48,216 nt of DNA from Parasitella parasitica (lineage: Eukaryota > Mucoromycota > Mucoromycetes > Mucorales > Mucoraceae), in NCBI GenBank assembly GCA_025201805.1, contig MU619359.1:31210-79425 (forward strand), read 5' to 3'. Shown here in pieces: positions 12,782-42,623 of the stretch (its first letter is position 1; each line of letters opens with the position of its first letter). A program made the position numbers and the translations under genes. The notes beneath the pieces were generated by a model. That model did not search any database. It worked only from the letters and a program-made list of their open reading frames with translations, and was not told the origin of the DNA.

Positions 12782-14896
12782 ATGGGGAAAGTCTATCTAA
12801 TCCATAGTAAGTTTGATGTGACCACTAGCATATGTAAATACAACGCATAGAATAATAACAGATGTATACATGACAGTTGCAATTATGACTGCAGTTTATA
12901 GTAATAGCATCGTTCATGCTCAAGCTACACAAAACTACGATGTTTCGACTACCACATTCAGTGTCATACACTCACCAAACTTTTATCCAAATCGAACCAG
13001 CAACCGTCCTGACAACAAGATGGGAGTGAGACTGGAGGGCAATGACAAAATCTACCTCTTGGATAATGCCAATTCCACAGACAGTCTTCTCTACACTGGT
13101 ATTGCTGATGTACCTTTGCTATTTACCCGTTACAAGTATGTAGTTGTAAATTCTCGTAACAAAGAGGTGGACAGTGAACCATTCTATCGCGATTTGGAGC
13201 AGCACAAAAACGGGGCATTTACTCCGTATGAGTTTTATGGCCGTCATCGTGCCCAGATACAACAATATATCAGCCGCAAACAGCAGCATACATTACCACA
13301 AGTCAAATGGACATATAAGGATGCGCAAAAGGAGCACAGGTACAGCGAAGGCCTGGATCGAGGCCAAGTTCACCCTGTCAATGACATTCCAACATGGCAT
13401 ATTCAAGCAAATCCAGCAGATTTTGGAACTTTGACAGAGAACATTCTGCAAGATGTTGGTATCACTGCAAATGTAACTCGCGTCAGTTCAAGCCATATTG
13501 AGCAATTTCGAAATGTCAAGATTGAATTGAGCGGACAGACATCAAGGTTGTTTAAAAAACTGTCTTATAGCGTTCATATTGATAAAGAAGGCTCCATAAA
13601 TGGCTACCGACGTTTCAAGCTACGTTCATGTGCTACTGACCCTAGTTACATGCGAGAAAAACTGTTTTATGATATCCTGGACGCTTCCAAATTACCAACT
13701 GCAAAAGCTTCCTATATTAGGTAAATAAATAATAGCGCGTTGCTAATAATGAATGATTCGATTCAACGATTTGTATCCACAGATTATTCATCAATCAAGA
13801 ACCTCAAGGGCTTTATCTGGTCGTTGACAACTACAAAAACCCATTCTTGAGAAATGTATTAGGGAATGGAAAATCCAGCTACAAACACGGCGCATTATTT
13901 CAAGGAAGTATGCAAGAAAATCCATTAGCTGTTGGTAAGCTTCAATCAGGAGCAAATCTGGGCTATTTAGGCCCTTCCAGCAATGATTATATTGAAAGCA
14001 GCGTTAATTTGAGCTCCTACAAGGTACAAGAAATAGCCCATGGTGACAAATCAAAGGATAATTTAGCAAGTCTTGTATCTTTTATCAAGTTTATCCAAGA
14101 GACAAGCAAGCGCAAGCATGCCAGAAAGAGGGGTGAGAAGAAATTGACTGATGAATGGAATAAGCGATTCGATGTTTCCTTGTTCTTGAAGCAGTACGTT
14201 TTTAATTAGTACATATATGGCTGTTTACCTATTGATCTTATCGTTATTTATTGTGTAATTGCAAACAGTATTGTATTTGAGGTTTTGTTAGGTCATGGTG
14301 ATGGCTACATGGGAGCAGCACACAATTACATGCTCTACCAGGACCTAGAACAGCATGGAAGATTTGTTTGGTTAGCCTCAGATTTAGACCAAACAATGGG
14401 AAGCACGCTCAAGGCAAATAGGTCCACTCCTGCTCATTCAGCATTCCAACAGCTCGACCGCTTTGGCTTGTTTAGTCAAACAGCAAACCGACCCCTTGTT
14501 AACCAACTCTTTCAGATCAAGCCTTTTGCTGACAGGTTTTATCAGATATTTTCAGATGTCAACCACTCATTGTTCAAATCGAATGCAATCACAGACCATA
14601 TTATATACCTGCAAAATCTTATAGAGCAAGACGTGGAGTGGGACCAACATCTAGATGCTTACCGCCCTGATAACTTTATCAAGAACAAGCATGTCTACGA
14701 TGATCAGTTGAATCAAAAGGTGTTGCAGTTGCCGTTAGGCCGAGATTTCATAGATAGAATTAGCAGTAAATCTATCGGTTTTAGAGCGGCCATTGAAGGG
14801 CCCATTACAGGCCATCCTTCCATCACTTCGTTGTTTGCTTGGTTTACAGACGCAAGCCAATACCTAGACAAATTTGTCGAATCATTAAAGAATTGA
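12782..14896 (+). CDS. CotH-family secreted protein (CotH kinase-like domain)
   Basis: Member of the CotH family, secretory-pathway or cell-surface proteins related to the Bacillus spore-coat kinase CotH and expanded in Mucorales, where some members are surface invasins. Exons 12782-12806, 12862-13720, 13783-14193 and 14269-14896 give 640 residues. The N-terminus (ending near SNSIVHAQA) is hydrophobic like a signal peptide. If the tiny first exon is wrong, the start would be 12870. Family blocks: GYRRFKLRSCATDPSYMREKL, a helix with LPTAKASYIRLFIN, EPQGLYLVVDNY, and WLASDLDQTMGS, the usual late acidic motif. The protein ends soon after the domain, with no Ser/Thr-rich stalk or hydrophobic tail, so a GPI anchor is not predicted and it is probably soluble. 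Nothing here shows a role in invasion. Confidence 0.88.
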
Positions 14897-25030: not shown

Positions 25031-27429
25031 TTAGTTTTCTTGGAGACGGTAAGAGCCGTGAGCAAAACTAAGTGGCACCAGTTTTTCCAAATCAGCAGTA
25101 GCTAAAACTTGCAAAGATCCAGCATCCAAAACAAGTAAGAATGAAGTCGATTTAGCTGAATCCATGACCACACTGATTAATACACCTTCATCTTCACCGA
25201 CTTCATCTTCGGGACCGATCGAGGGTCTTGGTACGAATACGGCTTCACTAGGATAGCAGAAATCTTGATGCCATGAAGCCACAATCTGTTTTGTGTCCAG
25301 ATTCTAAAAATAAAAATAAAAGTTGGCGTGTATTTAATCTGAATGGATCAGTATACTTACTGTCTTAACAATACTATCCCAAATTGCACCATCCTTTAAT
25401 GAACTCGTAGCTGAAAAGCCAAGACCATACATGATAGAGTGCTTGTACATGTTATATCTTGGATTGATTTGAGGTAGCTCGATAGGGGGTTGAACGCGCT
25501 TGTCATATGAGGCAATAGGCATCCATGAATACCATTTATTCGCAACAGAGTCTTGGTTATTGTACTCTATGTCATTGGCAGAAGGTGCCTGTTTCCTACC
25601 AAAAAGACCTATAATACGAGTAGTAACGCTATTCTTGGATGGTATCGATGAACTATTTGCCATATAAGAGATTTTCTCTTCCTCGATGTTGGCAAGTAGA
25701 TAGCGTCTCACTTCAGATGCCACCAATCGAGACGGTTGCATTGTAGAGGGATTACGTAAATACTCCGTTGTGAGCTGTCGAGCAATTGTGTCATCAGGGT
25801 AACAGATCATGTCTAAATATACATTATCACGATCATCCTCAAAAGCGTTGATGTGATTAAATACAAAACAAGGATCAGAGCGATAGGTGGCTATAACATC
25901 GCCTTTTTCACGAGAAATGACATAGAATAATGTAGGTTCTGAGGGTCTGAATGAGAAGGAATCCATGATACTTTCGTTCCAATTGTACTTGACACCGCCG
26001 GCATTAGCTAAAATAGGGCAAATTACCTATATTGAGATTTAATAGCTTTTCCAGATAAACAAAAAGACGAACTCCAACTTACAAAAATGATATATTTGGA
26101 CGTAATTGAAAAGGTATTGACATAGGCCATAGGTGCAGTAATAGAAGCAAGAAGAGATCCTTTTGGATTCCTTTCAGAGATCGAAAAGAAATTATACTTT
26201 ACTGATTGATAGCCCACTTCCATTAAGTAGTTGATGTATTCTCCAGTGCGAGAATCGTATTTGCCGTTAGGACAAGAGCTTGTGCCTTTGAATTTAGGGT
26301 TGAGTTCGTTCCATTGAAGTACACGAGTGGGCTTCAAATCAAAAGGATCCAGTTCTTGTACATGATTAGCATGATTCAGAGCAAATAATCTTCCCTCTAA
26401 ACCTGGAATGTTGGCTAAAATGCGAGCACTGCAGGGCTCAGCATCAGGCTTTTTCACTTTGGACGATCCAAGAACTTTTGACAGCACCGTTTGGTTGGTA
26501 TCCGACATGTAAAGCGCGCTGGGATGTTGAGGTGCATAGCCGTGGTGCTCTCTAATCTTTTCTACTAGTTTACGACTGGTCGATCTGTGTCTGTAGGTAA
26601 CTGAATTTCTGGAGCCATTCAAATCAAATCTATTCACCAAGGGAAGACTTTTTATACTCATAAAATTTAGCCAAATTTTCTTCAGTCGATCTCCCATATT
26701 GACTTACGCATCAAACCAATGTCCAAATGTATAGAATGCACTAGCATTCTGAAGTTCGCCGTCAACTTCAACCTTACGAGTATACTTGATATCAAACGTA
26801 GAAGGACCAATGGTAAAATGCTCTCCAATCAACCACTCTGGTAATTGACCTGTTACGTTCAAATCATCGATTTTATCACTATCTTGGAAGTTTTGAAATC
26901 CCTACATGGTATAAACATGAAACACGATGAGAAACTGGACAATCTTAATCAAAAAATAAAAGCAAGGAAAACAAACCTTTGTAGCTGAAGTATCTTTGTC
27001 CAAATCTTCTTGAATGATAGGCTCGTTTTGGTTATCTATGTCAAATACAGTAGTGGTGGCAACCGGAATTGGGCCCTCTGTTTCATTCTCTTGCAATAGA
27101 GCATTATCTTCTGGTTGAGCAGCCCAAGGATCGTTATTCTCATACTCTTCCAACGATAATGAAGCGAGTGGATGTTCCTTTTTATTACTATCCCAATCCT
27201 CCTCCTCCTCAGCAACAGCGGCAGCGGCAGCAACAGCAACAGCAGAAGTTGTTGTAGTGATAATTGCTTCATCTTGTTGTTGGTCTTTCTCGGGCTCGAC
27301 AGCGTGTTGACGAACATTACCTAACAAATCAGTCGCTTCTGGTTGAATACCAACCGGCTTGTTTTGAACAAGAGCTGTTTGTTCTTCTTCGCTTATATCA
27401 ATTAATGAGACTCTATTTGTATCAGACAT
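25031..27429 (-). CDS. Carotenoid-oxygenase-family protein lacking three iron ligands
   Basis: Carotenoid cleavage oxygenases are seven-bladed propellers with Fe(II) held by four His. In Mucorales they act on beta-carotene on the way to trisporoid pheromones. Exons 27429-26977, 26901-26708, 26647-26083, 26026-25361 and 25303-25031 give 716 residues. An acidic low-complexity extension of about 150 residues precedes the fold, which starts at GQLPEWLIGEHFTIGPSTFD and HWFDALPLVNRFD. At the expected His sites I read N343 (CPNGKYDSRTGEY), N393 (MAYVNTFSIT), N461 (CFVFNHINAFED) and H708 (FAHGSY). Ligand spacing of 50 and 68 residues fits the family, and the nearby second-shell Glu (AFED) is kept. 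The frame is intact, so it is not an ordinary pseudogene. It is probably a pseudoenzyme. The adjacent H462 could partly stand in for the third ligand. Confidence 0.88.
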
Positions 27430-27546: not shown

Positions 27547-28148
27547 TTATTGCATTTCTACTGACTTTTTCAAGGTTAAAAAGTGAAGATCTTTATCAAC
27601 CTTCAACATTTCAGGCCAAACAAAGGGGATGCGTTCACCTGTTTCTAAGAAACCAAGTTTCTTATACCAAGTCAATATTTCAGGTCTATTTTCTAATACA
27701 TGCATCATGGCAGTGTGATATCCAAGTCGAGGCATTTCTTGCATAGCTTGACGTACAAGCTTACCACCGATACCTCGAGATTGATGTGCAGGGCTGACAG
27801 AGAATAATCCAATTTCTGCTTCCCCAGGATGTTCAGGGGAATGTTGTATTTGAACCGTCCCAATAACTTGATCTTGGTCAAATGCAAACAAAAGTGTGTG
27901 AGGTTTACCGCTTTGAAGAATAAAATCTTGCATCATTTCAGCTGTACAACGTTCACCGCTGACAATATCTTTTTCCGTGGTCCAGCCCCCTATTTTTTCT
28001 GTGATTCAGTTGTCATGACAGTGAGATATGTCAATTTTCAGTACAAACCCTCTGAGCGGTAGGCAGCATTGACAACCTTGGCGGCTTCATTTTTGTATTT
28101 AACATCAGTAGTAACAACTGTACGAATATTAATGGTAGGTTGAACCAT
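27547..28148 (-). CDS. GNAT-family N-acetyltransferase (copy A)
   Basis: Acetyl-CoA-dependent acetyltransferase of unknown substrate. Two exons (28148-28049 and 27989-27547) give 180 residues. The N-terminus reads MVQPTINIRTVVTTDV, then VVNAAYRSEGGWTTEKDIVS. The acetyl-CoA loop is in HQSRGIGGKLV (Q-x-x-G-x-G), after VIGTVQIQHSP and IGLFSVSPA. The end ETGERIPFVWPEMLKVDKDL matches the neighbouring copy. The splice was chosen because it joins RSEG to GWTT as in copy B (RSDASWTNDR). It lies head-to-tail 125 bases downstream of copy B on the same strand. Confidence 0.88.
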
Positions 28149-28273
28149 ACTGATGATAAATCGACGACACAAAACAGCAGAAATAGAAAATAGAACAACG
28201 AAGAGGAAAAGATGAGATGAGTCTTGTAATTGGGTTTATTTTATTTTTTTCGCTAACATATAAATATAACCAA

Positions 28274-28819
28274 TTAGAGAATTGGATATCTCAAAACTGC
28301 CAATGGTGCTTCATCCACTATCAAAATATCACCATGGGGAAATGGGATCACTTCACCCTTATCCTGGAATCCCATACGAATGTACCAAGTGGTCAATTCA
28401 TGTCTAGATACAAACACATGCACTACAGCTTCCTTGATGGTAGGCATGTTTCCTTGAATATACTTCACCGACTCTCGGATAAGAAGACTCCCAACGCCGC
28501 GCGATTGATGAGTGGGACTGACCCCCAAACAATTTAAAATGGCCTCATTGCCTTGTATTAGAATATGAACGACACCTACTATTTGGTTCCCATCAAATGC
28601 GCATAAAAGTACATTGGGCTCATTGCATTTGAAATCAAATTCTGTTTCACCGCCTACAGGAATACGGTCAACATTTACAAATGCTCGATCATTTGTCCAA
28701 CTGGCATCAGATCGGAACGATACATTGATGATTTCATAAATTGTGTGTTTAAGTTCTTGATATTGTGATGGTTGAACAGCTTCGACTGTAATTTTTAAAG
28801 CATTATTAGCATTGTCCAT
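28274..28819 (-). CDS. GNAT-family N-acetyltransferase (copy B)
   Basis: Intronless paralogue of copy A, 181 residues. Shared features: FRSDASWTNDR, VVGVVHILI-type beta strands (here QIVGVVHILIQG), CLGVSPTHQSRGVGSLLIRE with the Q-x-x-G-x-G loop, TTWYIRMGFQDKGEVIPFPH and a hydrophobic end. The two copies are clearly diverged, so the duplication is old, and copy A has an intron where B has none. The substrate is unknown. Promiscuous small-molecule acetylation is typical of such fungal pairs (inference). Confidence 0.88.
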   Translation of the reverse strand: MDNANNALKITVEAVQPSQYQELKHTIYEIINVSFRSDASWTNDRAFVNVDRIPVGGETEFDFKCNEPNVLLCAFDGNQIVGVVHILIQGNEAILNCLGVSPTHQSRGVGSLLIRESVKYIQGNMPTIKEAVVHVFVSRHELTTWYIRMGFQDKGEVIPFPHGDILIVDEAPLAVLRYPIL

Positions 28820-41622: not shown

Positions 41623-42623
41623 TTATTCAGTAGCCATCATAAGTTTAATCTTAGCAATAGCGGCACCAGGTTGAAGACCCTTGGGACAAGTCTTTGAGCA
41701 ATTCATGATGGTATGGCAACGGTAGAGAGACATTTTGTTTTGAAGCTTTTCACGACGTTGAGGACCGAATTGATCACGAGAATCGATCATCCAACGATAA
41801 GCTTGCATCAATACAGCAGGACCAAGGTATTCTTCTTGATTCCACCAGTAAGAAGGACAGGAGGTGGAACAGCAGGCACAGAGGATACATTCATACAAAC
41901 CGTCGAGCTTCTTTCTGTCCTCAATGGATTGCAGGTTCTCTTTACCATCGGTAGGAGGTGTTTTTTGCTTGAGGAAGGGCTCGATACTCTTATATTGCTT
42001 ATAGAAGAGGGTTAAATCAGGCACTAAATCCTTGACAATGTTCATGTGGGGCAAAGGGTAGATCTTGGCTGGCTTGGAAGTGTTCTTGTCAATTTTGGAG
42101 ATACAGGCCAGAGTGTTACCGCCCTCAATGTTCATAGCACACGACCCACAAATGCCTTCACGGCAAGAGCGACGGAAAGTCAATGTAGAATCTTGTTCAT
42201 TCTTAATCTTGATCAAAGCGTCCAAAACCATGGGGCCACAAGAATTCAGGTCGACCTTGTAAGATTGAAGCACAGGCTTGTCGGTAGGCTTATCAGGGTT
42301 CTAGTGGTATTGTGTACCTTTTAGTCATTTTTATCTTATCATGTTTACCGTATTAGTTAATATTTTGTTTTTCTTACCCAGCGATAGATTTCAAAAGTCT
42401 TGATCCTTGGCTCTGGGGCATCCGCAGCAGACGCCATCATAGAGGCAGGTGTGGTGTGCAATGAGCGAGTCAAAGGCTATCGATGAGAAACGTAAACAAC
42501 GCGCAATCAGTATCCGCAATGTGTATGTTTTCCTTGCACAAAAACAAGACTTACGACGGCAGCTGCAGGAATCCAACGTCTAGAGATGGAGCTTTTCACG
42601 GTTTGTAGAGCAATAGAAGACAT
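41623..42623 (-). CDS. SDHB: Succinate dehydrogenase iron-sulfur subunit
   Basis: Complex II subunit carrying electrons from the flavoprotein to ubiquinone on the matrix face of the inner mitochondrial membrane. Exons 42623-42555, 42476-42378 and 42300-41623 give 281 residues. Presequence [20 protein letters not shown]. [2Fe-2S] cysteines lie in [15 protein letters not shown] and NTLACISKI. The [4Fe-4S] site is [16 protein letters not shown]. The [3Fe-4S] and second site lie in [19 protein letters not shown]. All expected Cys are present. The start matches a typical targeting sequence, and the second exon holds the presequence end ([20 protein letters not shown]). The 5' flank contains a poly-G/GGT run near 42791-42829. 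Confidence 0.97.

Follow-up and report, generated by a model that had tools for sequence, protein, structure and literature searches.

In this study, we analysed 48,216 nucleotides of the Mucorales fungus Parasitella parasitica (contig MU619359.1; hereafter the window) and, within them, a gene on the reverse strand at 25031-27429 that encodes a homologue of the carotenoid cleavage oxygenases with asparagine at three of the four positions that hold the catalytic iron. Sequence comparison and a predicted structure make it probable that this protein is an ancient, selectively maintained pseudo-oxygenase, most likely an intracellular apocarotenoid or lipid binder. Because the loss of ligands is old, stepwise and kept among relatives, the protein probably does another job. 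A sequence-only reading of the window had suggested a maintained pseudoenzyme, a proposal that gains support from the clade-wide ligand loss, the intact predicted fold and the conservation of the protein from Umbelopsis to Mucor.

Gene model, fold and iron site

The gene has five exons with GT-AG introns, and the splice model confirms the intact 716-residue frame that the sequence-only reading had described, together with its asparagine codons at residues 343, 393 and 461. Against PF03055, the protein, which belongs to clade A of the tree described below, scores 280.1 bits at a curated cut-off of 27, which makes it, in descent and fold, a member of the carotenoid cleavage oxygenase superfamily. 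The structure predicted for orthologue P0001, which was modelled instead of the Parasitella protein in a run covering 112 of 228 collected proteins, has the seven-bladed propeller, and its nearest solved fold is 6vcf, a carotenoid cleavage dioxygenase (CCD) of Nitrosotalea devanaterra. The FDG motif, named as a carotenoid oxygenase feature in the relevant part of PMC5643517, is absent, residues 212-216 reading HWFDA. Since the four-His proteins P0046 (Endogone, FDN) and P0057 (Calcarisporiella, FDA) are also without it, the motif is not diagnostic here.

The ligand sites were examined in three ways: by a phmmer alignment to 6vcf, by a homologue profile (112 proteins) aligned with solved chains, and by mapping from Caenorhabditis elegans BCMO-1, for which the part of PMC8866865 concerned gives His175, His237, His308 and His522 as iron ligands and Glu143, Glu407 and Glu464 as second shell. 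The four histidines map to N343, N393, N461 and H708, so that the four-His iron set is not present, and profile and BCMO-1 mapping agree with the earlier claim of Asn at three of four ligand positions. The same two methods place ligand 3 at residue 461; His462, which a structure-based alignment might have put at the iron site, is the next residue, is rejected as a ligand, and has Gln in its column in 14 of 52 rows of clades A and B. The three second-shell residues map to His308, E587 and E646. The second-shell glutamate that had been thought kept is thus found at two of the three positions, and the third, His308, is neither Glu nor Asp. Because the four-His fungal relatives are without Glu there too, its absence does not set the Parasitella gene apart. 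In several mammalian members, activity disappears when any single ligand His is mutated, according to the section of PMC7221588 that treats them, and the one remaining histidine should therefore not sustain the known chemistry.

The coordinates of ligands and glutamates were derived from the exon model and then read off the sequence:

26977..27429, reverse strand: exon 1, with the start codon and an N-terminal extension (residues 1-151) that is acidic and of low complexity; splice model
26708..26901, reverse strand: exon 2, in which the beta-propeller begins; splice model, PF03055 match from residue 164
26083..26647, reverse strand: exon 3, ligand positions 1 and 2; splice model
26266..26268, reverse strand: Asn343 (AAC), iron ligand 1, BCMO-1 His175; exon model and BCMO-1 mapping
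26116..26118, reverse strand: Asn393 (AAT), iron ligand 2, BCMO-1 His237; exon model and BCMO-1 mapping
25361..26026, reverse strand: exon 4, ligand position 3 and second-shell Glu587; splice model
25856..25858, reverse strand: Asn461 (AAT), iron ligand 3, BCMO-1 His308; exon model and BCMO-1 mapping
25478..25480, reverse strand: Glu587, second shell, BCMO-1 Glu407; mapping, Glu in 56/56 rows of A, B and Umbelopsis
25031..25303, reverse strand: exon 5, second-shell Glu646, ligand position 4 and stop codon; splice model
25244..25246, reverse strand: Glu646, second shell, BCMO-1 Glu464; mapping, 53 Glu, 1 Gln and 2 gaps in the 56 rows
25058..25060, reverse strand: His708 (CAC), sole remaining iron ligand, BCMO-1 His522; exon model and BCMO-1 mapping

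Most of residues 1-137 have a predicted local distance difference test score (pLDDT) below 50 in the P0001 model. The acidic extension had been taken as unlike catalytic members, a view that does not hold: in four-His fungal relatives the corresponding stretch is 50-356 residues long (one such row, P0063, is gapped at site 3), which rules the extension out as a mark of a pseudoenzyme. By eye, the fungal subfamily, four-His members included, seemingly has one extra residue directly before His4 compared with solved members.

Ligand loss among relatives and paralogues

Three protein searches yielded 276 listed proteins; the first scored the 8000 candidates with most shared words and listed the best 120 of 127, another likewise listed the best 120 of 170, and for this reason "clade" means sampled clade throughout. 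The subfamily tree was built from 106 rows with the ligand columns masked. Dropped beforehand were P0054, P0058, P0069, P0084, P0086, P0087, P0244, P0246, P0250-P0253, P0255 and P0256, for the most part fragments; of these, P0244 (HHHN) is full length and P0256 (HHHH) is prokaryote-like. There was no HHHH among the dropped Mucorales rows. An 86-row tree likewise omitted P0054, P0058, P0069, P0084, P0086 and P0087.

Clade A, which includes the Parasitella gene, comprises 25 rows (support 98/93 in the 106-row tree) and clade B 27 rows (99/94); together they form the Mucorales set (100/99), next to which stand four Umbelopsis rows (100/98), and the four-His Endogone protein P0046 is sister to all 56 rows (99/92). 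None of these 56 rows has the four-His set, and ligand loss thus extends across the whole sampled clade. Site 4 in them is His in 31, Arg in 22, Lys in one (P0030, with a doubtful end), Cys in one and a gap in one, and a single orthologue clade holds NNNH, NNHH and NNHR. Over all 106 rows the states are HHHH in 24 (three being the prokaryote outgroup), HHHN in 21, NNNH in 20, NNHH in 10, NNNR in 7, NHHR in 5, NHNR in 4, NNHR in 3 and HHHS in 2, with ten singleton patterns. The full HHHH is kept in the sister lineages Endogone, Glomeromycota, Calcarisporiella, Kickxellales and Dimargaris. In the Mortierellomycota (23 rows), His4 has been lost, to Asn in 22 and to Ser in one, and the other three histidines are kept (site 1 is gapped in P0073); this loss is separate from that in Mucorales. 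The rows in question are:

P0064-P0068, P0070-P0074, P0230-P0234, P0236-P0241, P0243 (Ser), P0247: Mortierellomycota with His4 loss

Several observations stand beside this pattern. Bifiguratus P0245 has Ser at His4, and the chytrid Geranomyces P0254 reads I-H-S-H. In the clade B proteins P0039, P0042 and P0043 (Rhizopus stolonifer, Blakeslea and Choanephora), His is back at ligand 1 while the other ligands are still lost. Arbuscular mycorrhizal fungi keep a four-His subfamily member (P0059-P0063, P0229, P0235 and P0242; P0063 is gapped at site 3) that differs from the tsp3/acaA type, which the part of PMC5238444 concerned reports as missing in two R. irregularis genomes. His311, in exon 3, occurs in none of the 24 HHHH rows and in 69 of 78 ligand-deficient rows ungapped at the four sites, in two lineages.

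The sequence-only reading had pointed to three matching losses in this gene. Reconstruction rules out a one-time triple loss, the losses having been stepwise and partly parallel. By fewest changes on the 86-row tree, site 1 went from His to Asn once, on the branch to Umbelopsis and Mucorales, followed by one return to His and one change to Glu; site 2 shows H>N one to two times, N>H one to two times and N>Q once; site 3 shows H>N five times, N>H twice and N>S once; and site 4 shows many exchanges between His and Arg, with H>N and H>C once each. At sites 1-3, all departures from His (7-8 of 7-8) led to Asn. At other columns the H>N share is 42.0/254.9, a rate at which seven of seven would have a probability of 3e-6; on the 106-row tree, counted without P0254 at the ligand sites, the values are 54.8/312.0 and 5e-6. 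All of these numbers are post hoc, depend on parsimony and treat every column alike.

A six-frame search of the genome with PF03055 found four loci: A (in the window), B (contig 31) and one each on contigs 6 and 2. Copy B (L009:1246-3405) is a second ligand-deficient carotenoid oxygenase of 635 amino acids with the state NNNH, and three of its four introns are placed, by eye, as in the window gene. Over long stretches, the window protein is 49% identical to copy B and 22-24% to the contig-6 and contig-2 proteins. Relatives of the latter two are HHHH in 103 of 108 cases, the other five being fragments of 322-339 residues, and such four-His paralogues coexist with A and B in Blakeslea, Benjaminiella and Radiomyces. 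A and B, both present in 17 species by names and clades among the matches listed, go back to a duplication event at the root of Mucorales; because both copies are kept in many species, their jobs probably differ.

Between Parasitella and the Mucor circinelloides complex, identity is 89.9% for A, 90.6% for B, 80.0% for the contig-6 type and 91.9% for the contig-2 type (compared with M. bainieri for A, M. ambiguus for B and the contig-6 type, and M. circinelloides for the contig-2 type). From Phycomyces and Umbelopsis to Mucor, A identity spans 53.6-89.9%. In all seven further comparisons (M. mucedo, Blakeslea, Benjaminiella, Cunninghamella, Radiomyces, Phycomyces and Umbelopsis) A was closer than the contig-6 type, whose orthology is uncertain in species with more than one copy. 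In the M. mucedo set, M. saturninus stood in for the contig-2 type; three species made up the Umbelopsis set, and Phycomyces had no contig-2-type entry.

Possible function and competing explanations

By sequence and model, the carotenoid-oxygenase propeller has been kept and three of four iron histidines have become Asn; we suggest that the protein would bind no catalytic Fe(II) and cleave no carotenoid. The propeller axis may have become a metal-free polar core, with Asn at sites 1-3 and His or Arg at site 4, held by the two remaining glutamates, and the hydrophobic tunnel would still bind a carotenoid-derived or similar lipid, the protein serving as carrier, buffer or sensor alongside the four-His paralogues of the same genome. 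In Phycomyces, according to the relevant section of PMC5133782, CarS and AcaA are carotenoid-cleaving enzymes of the four-His type that make trisporoid precursors. Since the loci on contigs 6 and 2 presumably belong with them, the first candidate for a ligand is an apocarotenoid. A more specific and rather unlikely version is that A and B are metal-free apocarotenoid sensors with an Asn/Arg core, in which beta-carotene, trisporoids or their precursors would be bound uncut in the old tunnel as an intracellular readout for sexual signalling or carotene end-product control. Were this true, the recurrent change from His to Asn would have been selected and not a product of drift.

A number of points weigh against a maintained binder. 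Tunnel conservation is only modestly above random, in a post hoc, sequence-mapped comparison, and the gap is smaller over A, B and Umbelopsis (0.99 vs 1.17 bits, without a random-set comparison); the mapping is uncertain in the helical cap, and Arg occupies one of the mapped tunnel positions in 25/25 A rows. A is further than the contig-2 four-His type in all six further comparisons with a contig-2-type entry, and so changes faster. His has been regained four to five times at sites 1-3 and some members keep two or three histidines (NHHR; HHHN); with His returning at these sites, some members might still hold metal. Since the non-ligand position 368 likewise departs most often by H>N (about 7.2 changes), and given the post hoc, parsimony-based nature of the count, the bias is a sign of constraint and not proof of selection. 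Lastly, deep branches near Calcarisporiella and Bifiguratus are weak (89/35 and 95/41), which makes the number of His4 losses uncertain, and Geranomyces P0254, with H>I at site 1 and H>S at site 3, lies on a long branch beside the outgroup.

The four-His paralogues in the same genome, as in Blakeslea, Benjaminiella and Radiomyces, would also suit an inactive partner that pairs with these enzymes and tunes or blocks them, its own tunnel being unneeded. We regard this as rather unlikely: identity to the proposed partners is low, and Mortierellomycota have a ligand-deficient member while none of the 108 relatives of the four-His paralogues comes from them, so that a partner may be missing there. 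A changed enzyme, with another metal set or with metal-free isomerase or hydrolase chemistry through Asn, His708 or Arg and the two glutamates, would account for the narrow, non-random range of site states (for the most part Asn at sites 1-3 and His or Arg at site 4), for the invariant Glu587 and for the distribution of His311; yet the known iron site cannot form with one His left, and the variation of states inside one orthologue clade is unusual for a catalytic centre, which makes such an enzyme rather improbable. Slow decay of an enzyme gene after loss of function would fit the successive loss of ligands and the state of P0050, the A copy of Phycomyces, which is changed at all four sites (site 3 being a gap). 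This is very unlikely in view of the intact frame and fold, of A identities that exceed those of one four-His paralogue in each comparison, and of the joint presence of A and B in so many species. That misalignment or sequencing error produced the apparent Asn ligands is barely credible. The single-sequence phmmer alignment to RPE65 is indeed shifted by two residues in the His1 region, another point against our assignment, but the profile alignment is unshifted and concordant with the BCMO-1 mapping, and the four-His proteins P0046 and P0076 carry one His only in that motif, which settles His1 at N343. Orthologues from many independent genomes share the ligand states, which excludes the sequencing error that the sequence-only reading had named as a possible refutation.

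If A and B are the binders we propose, they become candidate components of the perception or transport of trisporoids and of beta-carotene feedback. The proposed trisporic acid receptors are G protein-coupled receptors, for which functional tests were still needed according to the part of a 2017 paper dealing with them (PMC5705715). The database names of clade members P0007, P0016 and P0043 describe working beta-carotene oxygenases and are probably wrong. Moreover, stepwise and partly parallel exchange of ligands for Asn, together with living four-His sisters, offers an unusually complete record of possible metal shedding.

Neighbouring genes and relation to known systems

No carotenoid gene cluster was found among the 17 window proteins scanned against Pfam (the carotenoid-oxygenase homologue and 16 open reading frames), although unscanned exons may hide others. 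Five frames had no match; the rest matched GNAT, RTC4-like, WD40/BING4, Fer2_3/Fer4, DUF4210/Chromosome_seg, Arf-like, Rcd1-like, kinase, CotH (two frames) and synaptobrevin. A search of a plasmid collection gave no match. Three neighbouring features are:

12870-14896, forward strand: gene of CotH kinase-like type, split into two or more pieces, with PF08757 matches in two open reading frames
27547-28819, reverse strand: tandem GNAT-type acetyltransferase-like genes directly upstream of the carotenoid-oxygenase gene (28274-28819 by Pfam match, 27547-28005 by eye)
41623-42273, reverse strand: iron-sulphur protein with Fer2_3 and Fer4 domains, which we take to be probably the succinate dehydrogenase iron-sulphur subunit

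CarS/Tsp3 and AcaA of Mucorales belong to the same superfamily as the Parasitella A protein. The latter was rejected as an orthologue of either on its 22-24% identity to the loci presumed to be of these types, compared with 49% to copy B, a judgement made from identity to the contig-6 and contig-2 loci and without a tree containing CarS or AcaA. In Phycomyces blakesleeanus, only one of three additional CCD genes has the expected histidines, as stated in the section of PMC5133782 on these genes. The His-lacking two very likely correspond, as we infer, to P0022 (NNHH, clade B) and P0050 (clade A); that section is silent on their residues, on clade membership, on a duplication and on the order in which ligands were lost. 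His-lacking Phycomyces CCDs are thus already in print; in the portions of the open-licence literature covered, neither the clade nor its A/B duplication was found described, and the same holds for the stepwise loss and for the state in Mortierellomycota.

The four-His members of Glomeromycota, Endogone, Calcarisporiella, Kickxellales, Dimargaris and Thamnocephalis belong to the same subfamily and share, by eye, the extra residue before His4, but have the complete HHHH, unlike the Parasitella A protein. With the carotenoid cleavage oxygenases at large (PF03055, RPE65/CCD), the Parasitella protein has in common the propeller fold, the tunnel positions and two second-shell glutamates; it differs in its Asn at iron ligands 1-3, in lacking the third second-shell Glu and in reading FDA for FDG. 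Pseudoenzymes in general keep their fold and lose catalytic residues, whereas here the same replacement recurs at three sites in several lineages.
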